From: Orbilia blumenaviensis
Taxonomy: Eukaryota; Ascomycota; Orbiliomycetes; Orbiliales; Orbiliaceae
Length of the DNA stretch: 64,000 nt
Direction of reading: 5' to 3'
Assembly (NCBI GenBank): GCA_036872755.1
Contig: JAVHNS010000007.1
Coordinates: 310,001-374,000 of the forward strand
Of this stretch, positions 40,885 to 44,178 are shown piece by piece. Position numbers and translations under genes: made by a program. The notes beneath the pieces are model-generated. The model saw only the letters and a list, made by a program, of their open reading frames with translations. It had not been told where the DNA came from and made no database searches. Each line of letters begins with the position of its first letter. The stretch's first letter is position 1.

Positions 40885-41242
40885 CTCCATTTTTTATCTG
40901 CTTTGAATGTTGGGTATATGCTTTCTAATGAGAGAGTCTTATGAAGGATGGATAATGTAAATATTCCTATTCGGCCGAACGGCGGAATAAATCACAAAAA
41001 CGACGGGATTATCGATACTTCCTTAGGTATCGATACCGCTCATATGCTCATGCATGATCCTTCATGCTGACACCCGTTTCCGAATCATTCCACCATAGAC
41101 GCCTAGCCAAAGCACCACTACTAACTATGCAACGTGAACAACACAAACCACGACAATCCATCACCCTTCTCGCAACACACTGAAAAAATGGGCGGCGGGG
41201 AATCATCTAATAGCGGGGATGGCGTAGTTGGGAACGCGTCAG

Positions 41243-41311
41243 GTAAATTTGCTCCCGCCAAGCATCGATAATTATAACAGAGCCTCTCACTAATACAAAA
41301 ATTGAATATAG
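41243..41311 (+). other. Spliceosomal-type 69-nt insert inside tRNA-Phe
   Basis: Begins GTAAAT and ends ATATAG, with CACTAATAC about 18 nt before the end, which fits the fungal CTRAY branch site at the usual distance. Size and composition match mRNA introns of this window. Removing it rejoins TCAG to A and restores the five-pair anticodon stem exactly. It does not lie at the canonical 37/38 tRNA intron site, so tRNA splicing endonuclease would not be expected to remove it (established knowledge). Confidence 0.7.
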
Positions 41312-41318
41312 ACTGAAG

Positions 41319-41336
41319 TTAAACTTCGGGAACGAA
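41319..41336 (+). other. Canonical 18-nt tRNA-Phe intron
   Basis: Lies between positions 37 and 38 of the anticodon loop and contains CTTC, complementary to the GAAG of the anticodon, as in the yeast tRNA-Phe intron of similar length. Confidence 0.85.
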
Positions 41337-41369
41337 ATCTGAAGATCGGGTGTTCGATCCACCCTCACC

Positions 41370-41383
41370 GCAAAAATTTTTGC
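41370..41383 (+). terminator. RNA polymerase III T-run terminator
   Basis: Five T at 41377-41381 begin 5 nt after the tRNA discriminator base. They are embedded in the perfect 14-bp palindrome GCAAAAATTTTTGC that overlaps the tRNA 3' end. Confidence 0.7.
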
Positions 41384-42460
41384 TGTTCTTTTGGGTCGAA
41401 TACAGGTCTGGATAGCTAGTTAGGACCCCGGTCTCGGAGCACTAGTCTGGTGCAAGGGTCAGAACTGGGAGATATATATTTTGGAAGTTGAGGATGCTGG
41501 ATGCTGATATTTACGATATAACATATGGGAAGGTGTTATGTTCTGAATTGTGGTTTTCCTATTCTGATTTTATTGTGGATTCACGGTGCGCCTGGGAGGC
41601 TGGTCTCGTCGGCCGGTAGCCTATGCTAGCATCAAGCCTTCACATGGGCCACTGCATCTACAGCGTTACTATAGCCGGTTATTTGAAATGATATAGCTAT
41701 ATAGCTATGCGGGGTCTCGAGCTTTTTAAGCTGTTCGGGATAACTTGGTTTCTGCATTGGATAATCTAGGACATGGCTTTGTGGTCCGTAGTACGCATTT
41801 AGCTTCGATAAGGATCCATATCCTGCGGTATAACTATTTTAGGGTAGCTACCAGATTAGGACATATTAAGTAGCGGTTTATCCCAGACACCAGTCTGGCA
41901 TGGTATCCTGATATCAGGCTTTAGAATCAAGATCCTGAAATCCTGAAACATCACTGGGTGCTACAAGTACTACAAGTAGCTAGAGTTTAAGACCTTAAGA
42001 CGCTGTATCTCTACCTTATTAGCTCGCTGTATCTAAAAATCCTAATATATATTACATTATTCGATATAAATGTTTCCGTTGATTGTCGGATTGGGGACCT
42101 GGGTTCTGGCAAGTGATGGCGCCTAATTATTTATGTATTTTGAAATACTTTCAGCTGAAAATGTCTAAAGAGCGAAATATGAACCATTCTTTAGAACAGA
42201 GGGAGTCCTATTTTCCCTAGGGTAGTCTACCAGTTTGAAAATTCCTGAGAGTGATCTGGGATCGTTTCGTATAGCTTGTTCGCCAGAGGCTCTCCAATTG
42301 AGGCTTAAAAGGAATAGGTGATATAGCGGGATATGTAGCAGCTTACCCCCACTAGGATTCGGGATCATCTGGAGAAGGCTCTCAGGTTATACCTGAATAA
42401 TTATGTTGTATAACATCGCCTCGTTTCAAATATCGAGATAGTCGTAAGATTTTAAGACGG

Positions 42461-42486
42461 GATAGCTATCCTGCATGCGCATGCAG
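42461..42486. repeat. Two adjoining perfect palindromes
   Basis: GATAGCTATC (10 bp) is followed directly by CTGCATGCGCATGCAG (16 bp). Each is a perfect inverted repeat with no spacer. They lie in noncoding DNA. Confidence 0.9.
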
Positions 42487-44178
42487 GCATCTACCTGCAA
42501 AATATGCTAGCAATGCGACGGCATCAACGTCGATAATCCGTAAGCCTTGCAATGGAGGTTGAACTTAACGTGATACCGATTAGCATATACACGATTTTTC
42601 TTGATCAAGAACCTGTGATATCAGATATCAGCTTTCCTGGGTTATCCCGGAAGGATGCGTCATGCACCATCGGTTACATTTCGTCCTCCCAGTACTACTA
42701 TTTTCAAACCACCCACGTGCGAAAGCGCACGGTATAAGCGGCATAGGGAAATGTAATCCATTCCTGGCGGGCGACTATCGATTATGCGTGTTTTACACCG
42801 CAGACACTAAACGAAAGGAAAGGATTGCAAAGAAACATCACATTTGAGAAGCTGAGGTTAATTGGTGAAGAGCGCCGATGAACTTGCGGCTCTGCGCGGC
42901 TCTTATAGAGATCTTGAGAGTTAGGCTGCGCTTGTGGCCGTGGTGTTTTAACTTTCTCGTAGTTTGAATCTGGTGATGTGGATCAAATAAGGCTGACCGT
43001 TTTGTCAGGCGAGCTCCAGGTTACATAGAGTGCAGCTGGCAGGCCGGGTCTAACTCAGGATTCTAGCTAGCGCACAAAGCTTCATATTTCGTCTTTCGAA
43101 AGCCGGGCTTCGAAAGGAAAACCCCCCAAAAAAACAAGATCAAGAAGAGGGGTTTACGTATATTTTAGACGAGGCTATTGATCGAAAGGCCAATGAATCC
43201 AATTGCCACAAGCTTTACTCCCTGTTTGGTGATCGTTCGTCAGAAATACACCCGTTTGCCTTTGGACCGGCGGCTTGTTTTCGTCGATGATCTGCCAAAC
43301 AACAAAAGAGGCCAGCGGACGGGATTTCTTTCAGGGTCGTGTGGACAAGCGATATAGGCGTAAAACTAAAACTATAGTCAAATTCGGTTGGCGGAAAGCT
43401 TTAAGAAAGATTAGAGGCTGAAAATGCAGGCAGGAAGGCAGATTAGTACGGGCGGGTCGAGTCACAACAGCCGGATCCATGCCATGGCCATATTGAGGTG
43501 AGTCCGATTCCCAATGGGACATGAGACCTTCTCGAACTCGACTAAGAATAAACTAGTCTAGGGCCAGCTGGGACAATGTGGCGAACCAAGATCCTTGATG
43601 GACCCTGCACCTACACATACATATGTGTACAGACGGCCGACATGTCCATGGGGGGGTGGAGCCATGTCGACCATCCAGTACAGGTACATTACATCTCAGC
43701 GCAATGTGTCTGTCTCTGTGCAGGATCGAAGTCCTAAGGCAGGTTTGGATTCAAAGATAAAAGACGTCTTTGGCCCACCCTAATTTTTTTAATTTTTTTT
43801 TTTTTTTTTTTAGTCTTCCAAAGAGTTCAATCCCCTAATATTAGTAGTCCTCTCCGCTCCTTTTTACAATTCATAGAAGCTTCTGTTGAACCTGACTCAT
43901 TTGCATTGCAACTCTATCTATCTATCAATCTACCCATCGATCTATCCTTCCCAGTCATATATACCATACATACGTACACATACTTTGGGCGGTTACCCTT
44001 GTGCTTACCCAGCTATCTTACCTGGTAACGTTATCGTCCAATCGTCCAGAAACCCCATCCCATCCCATCCCTCCAGATCCAGCCGGACACCCGCATCTCT
44101 CGAGTCCCCCTTCCCGATCGAGCTCAGGTCCATCCAGTTTGGCTGCGAGGGTCCACCCTTAGCTTAACGAGAGTAAGA

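Follow-up and report, generated by a model that had tools for sequence, protein, structure and literature searches.

A probable spliceosomal intron at position 30/31 of a fungal tRNA-Phe(GAA) gene that also carries a canonical 37/38 intron

Within the 64,000-nt stretch of DNA analysed here (the window; G000:C7:310001-374000, in a genome of 42.46 Mb in 23 contigs), we found a tRNA-Phe(GAA) gene that is interrupted twice, once at the canonical 37/38 site and once at 30/31, inside the anticodon stem. The longer of the two inserts, 69 nt at 30/31, is probably a spliceosomal (U2-type GT-AG) intron in a nuclear, Pol III-type tRNA gene whose precursor would be processed. This reading is built on the anatomy of the gene, the splice signals of the insert, a tRNA-type constraint on the exons and a second case, a tRNA-Leu(CAA) gene on contig C9, all of which can be seen in the genome sequence itself. 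The source is an Arthrobotrys-like Orbiliomycete, and so belongs to the nematode-trapping fungi or their close kin: next to the gene, an Nma111-type protein shares 93% identity with one of Arthrobotrys flagrans, and for the Rok1 helicase the identity to its counterparts in six species of Arthrobotrys and Orbilia is 81-84%.

The exons, both inserts and the terminator that a preliminary description had assigned to the Phe gene were all recovered at the positions given in Table 1, among them the 18-nt insert with its CTTC facing the anticodon and the 69-nt insert with its GTAAAT start, a branch motif about 18 nt from its end and a terminal TAG. That description had also held that exact removal of the longer insert restores five stem pairs, and both in-silico splicing and ARAGORN bore this out, yielding 5/5 anticodon-stem pairs and a GAA loop. 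In the spliced product the conserved bases are present and 20 of the 21 cloverleaf pairs are formed, G5/A68 being the sole exception. A tRNA search with and without positions 41243-41311, proposed earlier as a check, gave a call of Phe(gaa) from ARAGORN only when the 69 nt were removed: with the 37/38 intron fixed, the program then reported tRNA-Phe(gaa) with an 18-nt intron, and for the unspliced gene it returned Ser, Ile or nothing, according to the intron option. The unspliced gene had no Rfam tRNA match, neither when the whole window was scanned at gathering scores nor in a local search at E<=10. The Ser and Ile calls by ARAGORN treat the interruption as a single 87-nt insert, an interpretation that we rejected, its 37/38-fixed form placing an A at position 33; the intact paralogs described below fix the two-insert reading.

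Table 1 Features of the split tRNA genes. Positions are those of the window, except in the last row
Feature	Position	Strand	Remarks
tRNA-Phe(GAA) gene, split	41213-41372	+	two inserts: 69 nt at 30/31, 18 nt at 37/38
Exon 1, positions 1-30 (acceptor 5' strand, D arm, 27-30)	41213..41242	+	4/4 D-stem pairs
A box TGGCGTAGTTGG	41220..41231	+	sequence read; fits the A-box consensus TRGYNNARNNGG
69-nt insert at 30/31, predicted spliceosomal intron, GTAAAT...ACTAAT...TATAG	41243..41311	+	
Predicted branch site CTAAT	41290..41294	+	branch A at 41293, 18 nt from intron end
Exon 2, positions 31-37, ACTGAAG including anticodon GAA	41312..41318	+	
Canonical tRNA intron, 18 nt, 37/38	41319..41336	+	CTTC pairs with anticodon GAAG
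Exon 3, positions 38-73	41337..41372	+	one mismatch (G46A) against the two C1 paralogs
B box core GTTCGATCC	41352..41360	+	
T5 run, predicted Pol III terminator	41377..41381	+	4 nt after the Phe gene
tRNA-Leu(CAA) gene, split, 211 nt	L167:187-397 = G000:C9:627386-627596	+	met in the tRNA-gene survey

The signals expected of a Pol III gene are in place, namely an A box, a B box and a terminal T-run, with no TTTT inside the gene. T8 and G53 lie 132 nt apart in the split Phe gene and 183 nt apart in the split Leu gene, compared to 62 nt in the intact Phe paralogs, and this long spacing might lower TFIIIC binding or transcription in both split genes. Folding energies of the Phe sequences were uninformative; neither the spliced tRNA nor the intact paralog has a cloverleaf as its minimum-energy fold.

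We compared the 69-nt insert with mRNA introns of the same window. Our own coding-potential intron finder was noisy, and two homologous proteins were instead placed on the window by spliced alignment, giving eight homology-supported mRNA introns. These are 61-97 nt long, and all eight start with GTA, end with [CT]AG and have CTRAN 11-23 nt before the end. The Phe insert agrees with every one of these rules, its 69 nt falling inside the size range, and the combined rule is passed by 2 of the 127,862 69-mers on both strands of the window, the insert itself counted. Its branch site, ACTAAT, fits RCTRAY and its distance of 18 nt from the end lies within the span of the local introns. Exon-1 lengths of 28, 29 and 30 lead to an identical spliced product, so that the insertion point is free by 2 nt, and GT..AG ends appear only in the last of these three registers (exon 1 = 30). 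The weakest point of the Phe intron is its donor, GTAAAT, which lacks a G at +5, a base present in 7 of the 8 local mRNA introns (the exception being GTATTT); splicing could for this reason be weak. When the insert was replaced by random first-order sequences, an exact full-length GT..CTRAY..AG rescue at 30/31 occurred in 3 of 20,000 cases and some rescue anywhere in the arm in 276 of 20,000. Searched genome-wide for copies such as an introner-type repeat would have, the Phe insert has a single match, itself, and the Phe and Leu inserts have no clear similarity to each other.

Intact relatives of the gene were sought in the genome with the 36-base 3' part of the tRNA-Phe, allowing up to three mismatches. 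This part occurs three times, at the split locus and at two places on contig C1. The two C1 genes have one and the same sequence, which scores 52.9 bits as tRNA; they fit a 17-nt intron at 37/38, its CTTC placed as in the split gene, and have no further insert; the count of uninterrupted tRNA-Phe(GAA) genes that had been proposed earlier therefore comes to two. Because these two genes exist, the split copy need not be essential. Both carry the same G5/A68 mismatch as the split copy, so this mismatch, which the preliminary description had seen as leaving a pseudogene possible, is not a sign of decay, and by comparison of the three copies it is normal for the species.

The mature split tRNA differs from its paralogs at 7 of 73 bases (positions 9, 12, 13, 16, 22, 23 and 46). 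From paralog to split copy, U12-A23 has become G12-C23 together with A9G, C13-G22 has become U13-A22 together with G46A, and C16 has become U. Both sides of the D-stem pairs 12-23 and 13-22 have thus changed with pairing kept, and positions 9 and 46 are the base-triple partners of these two pairs. All 20 standard pairs of the paralog are retained, and in comparison with the intact copies we found no pseudogene decay, that is, no loss of pairing or of promoter elements. In a simulation of seven independent random changes, all pairs were kept in 2.7% of a million trials, pairs were kept with at least two double compensations in 2.7e-4, and the fraction was 7.5e-5 when a list of invariant bases also had to be kept. 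Triples were tallied in the 18 of 33 distinct tRNAs of the genome that could be numbered (the other 15 were dropped for long variable arms, unresolved introns or a low score). Here U12-A23 goes with A9 in 7 of 8 and G12-C23 with G9 in 5 of 8, proportions that make the position-9 rule a loose one; all 12 tRNAs with G22 have G46, and 2 of the 3 with A22 have A46.

These D-stem changes may not have been independent. The D arm of a tRNA-Ser(GCT) gene (L028) shares G9, G12, A22 and C23 with that of the split Phe gene, from which it differs at only 4 of 19 bases, as judged among the 25 genes with this arm length out of the 41 surveyed below, the 16 of other length being left out. Partial gene conversion of the Phe D arm from a tRNA-Ser(GCT)-like source is possible, and in that case the simulated odds would count for less; it would leave U13 and A46 to arise afterwards. 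We set aside the idea that the D arm was borrowed whole: 10 other places in the genome lie within 3 of 19 bases of it, none in a scanner-found gene (surroundings inspected for two of the 10). Either way the full D stem is kept, which decay would not give, and the split Phe gene has been maintained as a tRNA, under a constraint that could predate the insertion.

The split tRNA-Leu(CAA) gene has a 100-nt insert, GTATGT...AGCTAACCT...TAG, at 30/31 and a 30-nt intron at 37/38. The boundaries of the longer insert are fixed because an insert-free paralog (L048, on contig C15) sets them; placed by this comparison, it reads GTATGT...AGCTAACCTTCCTCTTAG, with GT..AG within 1 nt of register freedom. The donor GTATGT fits GTRWGT fully, the branch site GCTAAC fits RCTRAY 12 nt from the end, and the intron rule is passed by 4 of 127,800 100-mers of the window. 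Spliced in silico, the gene is called tRNA-Leu(caa) with a 37/38 intron, and when unspliced it is called by ARAGORN as Asn or as Leu with a wrong anticodon. The mature tRNA departs from L048 in its variable-arm loop and at pair 49-65, which is A-U compared to G-C in the paralog and hence compensated. There is no internal TTTT, and a T10 run begins 4 nt after the end of the gene. With random inserts in the Leu gene, exact full-length rescue at 30/31 was seen in 10 of 20,000 and some GT..AG rescue in 5,951 of 20,000, so that the loose criterion proves little for the long Leu arm.

This gene was met among loci fetched for a survey of tRNA genes. For a count under set rules, a scanner requiring an acceptor stem, a D arm and a T arm, with free length between them, was then applied to the fetched loci and the window, mitochondrial loci being left out. 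It returned 41 distinct nuclear tRNA-like genes, of which 8 have a plain anticodon arm, 30 fit a 37/38 intron and 3 fit neither, under a permissive fit for an ordinary arm (4/5 pairs with G-U, T33). For each of the three misfits we tried the removal of every GT..CTRAY..AG segment of 45-140 nt, one at a time. Two were rescued, the Phe and the Leu gene, both at 30/31: the former is restored by one removal only, that of 69 nt, and the latter by removal of 100 nt or of 113 nt, the second having the same start, five pairs and another variable arm. The third misfit (L126; G000:C5:1140732-1141202, - strand) fits neither arm pattern, and no GT-AG segment removal rescues it.

Loci for the scanner came from several sources. 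The Rfam tRNA model RF00005 was scored on 63 of 1649 candidates and missed the intact Phe genes. B-box matches were taken as the first 100 of 191 in one list, and a later list held 214 in total; of 61 B-box regions 60 were fetched, the remaining one lying inside the window, and 12 further places were fetched from the later list. Contigs after C9 were covered through RF00005 hits and gapped patterns only, the latter joining a branch site, AG, an anticodon loop and a T arm and being run genome-wide. The first gapped pattern (5 places) was too strict, missing both the Phe and the Leu gene, and was widened afterwards. Two widened patterns matched at 17 and 20 places, among them the Phe and the Leu gene, compared to 34 and 26 in reversed controls, and no further split tRNA was recognised among these places, judged from the matched strings alone; two places met with the gapped patterns, C3:1166418 and C17:435611, resemble ordinary tRNA genes. 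Since the survey is incomplete, two split tRNA genes is a lower bound. Two scans of viral contigs for relatives returned 0 matches.

The main rival to a spliceosomal intron is that the Phe and Leu genes are retired copies, once working and then silenced by an intron-like insertion (for instance through reverse splicing or repair), with no splicing now. Intact paralogs do exist for both genes, the constraint on the exons could be older than the insertion, and short insertions in D and T arms, mostly in one of many synonymous eukaryotic genes, are supposed marks of pseudogenes (PMC4090602, excerpt). We nevertheless regard this as unlikely: no decay is seen, changes are compensated, no damage is found in the A box, the B box, the pairing of the canonical intron or the terminator, and both inserts retain donor, branch site and acceptor at the right spacing, at a site shared by two genes. 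A location within a Pol II transcript (a long non-coding RNA or UTR), with an ordinary intron in a tRNA-derived exon and any tRNA cut out, would suit the fact that spliceosomal introns normally sit in such transcripts, and the Phe locus is outside long reading frames, because the stretch from 40907 to 43737 holds no stop-to-stop frame of >=90 aa. Against this, the gene comes with an A box, a B box and a T5 run of its own, the intron boundaries are precisely those that restore a tRNA, and the arrangement repeats at a second locus, all of which makes a Pol II origin quite improbable.

We give hardly any credence to an ectopic tRNA-type intron of the archaeal and red algal kind, in which the endonuclease cuts at a bulge-helix-bulge, even though 30/31 is a known archaeal ectopic site (PMC4090602, excerpt) and a 37/38 intron is also present. 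In the three registers of the Phe insert, 0, 1 and 0 of the 4 central helix pairs of a bulge-helix-bulge are formed, and in a relaxed search 98% of shuffled inserts do no worse; the Leu insert forms 2 of 4 in both registers. A missing bulge-helix-bulge is not final, because many ectopic introns of the Guillardia nucleomorph form no defined one (PMC3978253, excerpt), but both inserts have GT..CTRAY..AG signals instead.

If the 30/31 inserts are spliceosomal introns, Pol III would make a precursor carrying both introns, the spliceosome would remove the 30/31 intron first, rebuilding the anticodon stem, and the tRNA splicing endonuclease and ligase would then take out the 18-nt intron at 37/38. 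The eukaryotic endonuclease finds 37/38 through the folded tRNA (PMC3978253, excerpt), and because the 30/31 intron parts the strands of the anticodon stem, this recognition should fail before the spliceosome has acted. From this we infer the order of spliceosome, then endonuclease; the split genes would likewise be transcribed and spliced, and their products used. The earlier suggestion of a precursor needing both the spliceosome and the tRNA endonuclease is strengthened by the structure-keeping substitutions relative to the intact paralogs, and also by the Leu gene, with its same architecture and same 30/31 site. We lean slightly towards a broader view, in which a subset of the nuclear tRNAs of this fungus (at least the Phe-GAA and Leu-CAA copies) could not be made until an mRNA-type intron at a recurrent 30/31 site had been taken out by the spliceosome. 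The split stem would block the endonuclease until then, placing two unrelated machines in a fixed order on one Pol III transcript; tRNA supply would be tied to spliceosome activity; and the shared site would point to site-biased intron gain in structured RNA genes.

U6 RNA is made by Pol III, and U6 introns are a precedent for spliceosomal splicing of a Pol III RNA. The inserts described here are like the introns of U3 snoRNA and U6 snRNA in fungi in being of the mRNA-type GT-AG kind and in interrupting a short structured RNA, and they differ in that the host is a tRNA that also carries an endonuclease-type intron. In the present genome, the two U6 genes over the family cut-off (G000:C7:1420791 and C14:918080) are both contiguous across the model, with no intron. 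For fungal U3 introns, a donor GTRWGT in 88 of 136, a branch site RCTRAY, a YAG end, a mean length of 92 nt and a branch-site distance of 6-36 nt have been described, and eight genomes hold copies with and without the intron next to each other; U6 introns are mentioned there by citation (PMC5832005, excerpt).

Both split genes resemble canonical intron-containing nuclear tRNA genes in having an intron at 37/38, and that of the Phe gene keeps the anticodon-intron pairing seen in its paralog; they depart from them in the extra insert at 30/31, which has no bulge-helix-bulge. Nuclear tRNA introns are generally exclusively at 37/38 (PMC3978253, excerpt), and the exceptions, the ectopic introns of nucleomorphs and C. 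merolae, either serve as substrates of the endonuclease or have an unknown mechanism (PMC4090602, excerpt). Multiple introns per tRNA gene are shared with archaea, nucleomorphs and Cyanidioschyzon merolae, 30/31 being an archaeal site, and in C. merolae the 37/38 intron is removed last (PMC4090602 and PMC3978253, excerpts); unlike the ectopic introns of these systems, those of the split Phe and Leu genes have spliceosomal signals. In Saccharomyces, protointrons indicate that the spliceosome acts on many transcripts with chance splice signals, at ~1% median splicing and in mRNAs and non-coding transcripts, tRNA-mapping reads having been discarded (PMC6726248, excerpt). Searches of open-licence literature, which mostly leaves out subscription journals, pointed to no spliceosomal intron in a tRNA gene; as far as the literature searched goes, the intron type is known, and the tRNA host and the combination with a 37/38 intron are new.

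The spliceosome and the tRNA endonuclease are regarded as separate systems with separate substrates, a separation that two tRNA genes with both intron types would break. Such genes would also test, in a natural setting, whether the spliceosome has access to tRNA transcripts made by Pol III, and with the Phe and Leu genes there would be two intron gains matched in position, in genes whose structure is very strongly constrained. More such genes may go unnoticed, because Rfam and ARAGORN miss or misassign the unspliced Phe gene and ARAGORN misassigns the Leu gene.

Several other tRNA-like loci were noted along the way. Two of them, L088:1418-1522 (G000:C2) and L165:178-383 (G000:C9), share the same T arm and the same two acceptor mismatches and have oversized anticodon regions (105 and 206 nt in all), L088 scoring 34.5 bits as tRNA; both were set aside as further split tRNAs on account of the two acceptor mismatches in each and the TTTTT inside L165, and possibly they are a decayed or tRNA-derived family. 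A tRNA-Thr(AGT) gene (L044; G000:C10:739623-739758, - strand) has a 63-nt insert at 37/38 that by eye shows no GT-AG ends in the register fixed by its paralogs, the copies L002 and L003 being without the insert. On contig C1, eight B-box matches fall within 2.4 kb (L073-L080, mainly L077; G000:C1:2344262-2346700, - strand). These are tRNA-like 3' modules (T arm plus acceptor strand), several of them CCA-ended and most, by eye, lacking a standard 5' half; ARAGORN reads one of them as an intron-containing tRNA-Ser(act), and Rfam found no tRNA in L077 at E<=0.5. Finally, on the 215-kb contig G000:C21, which is likely mitochondrial, several tRNA genes repeat ~185.2 kb apart, and because of this recurrence the contig seems longer than one full circle.
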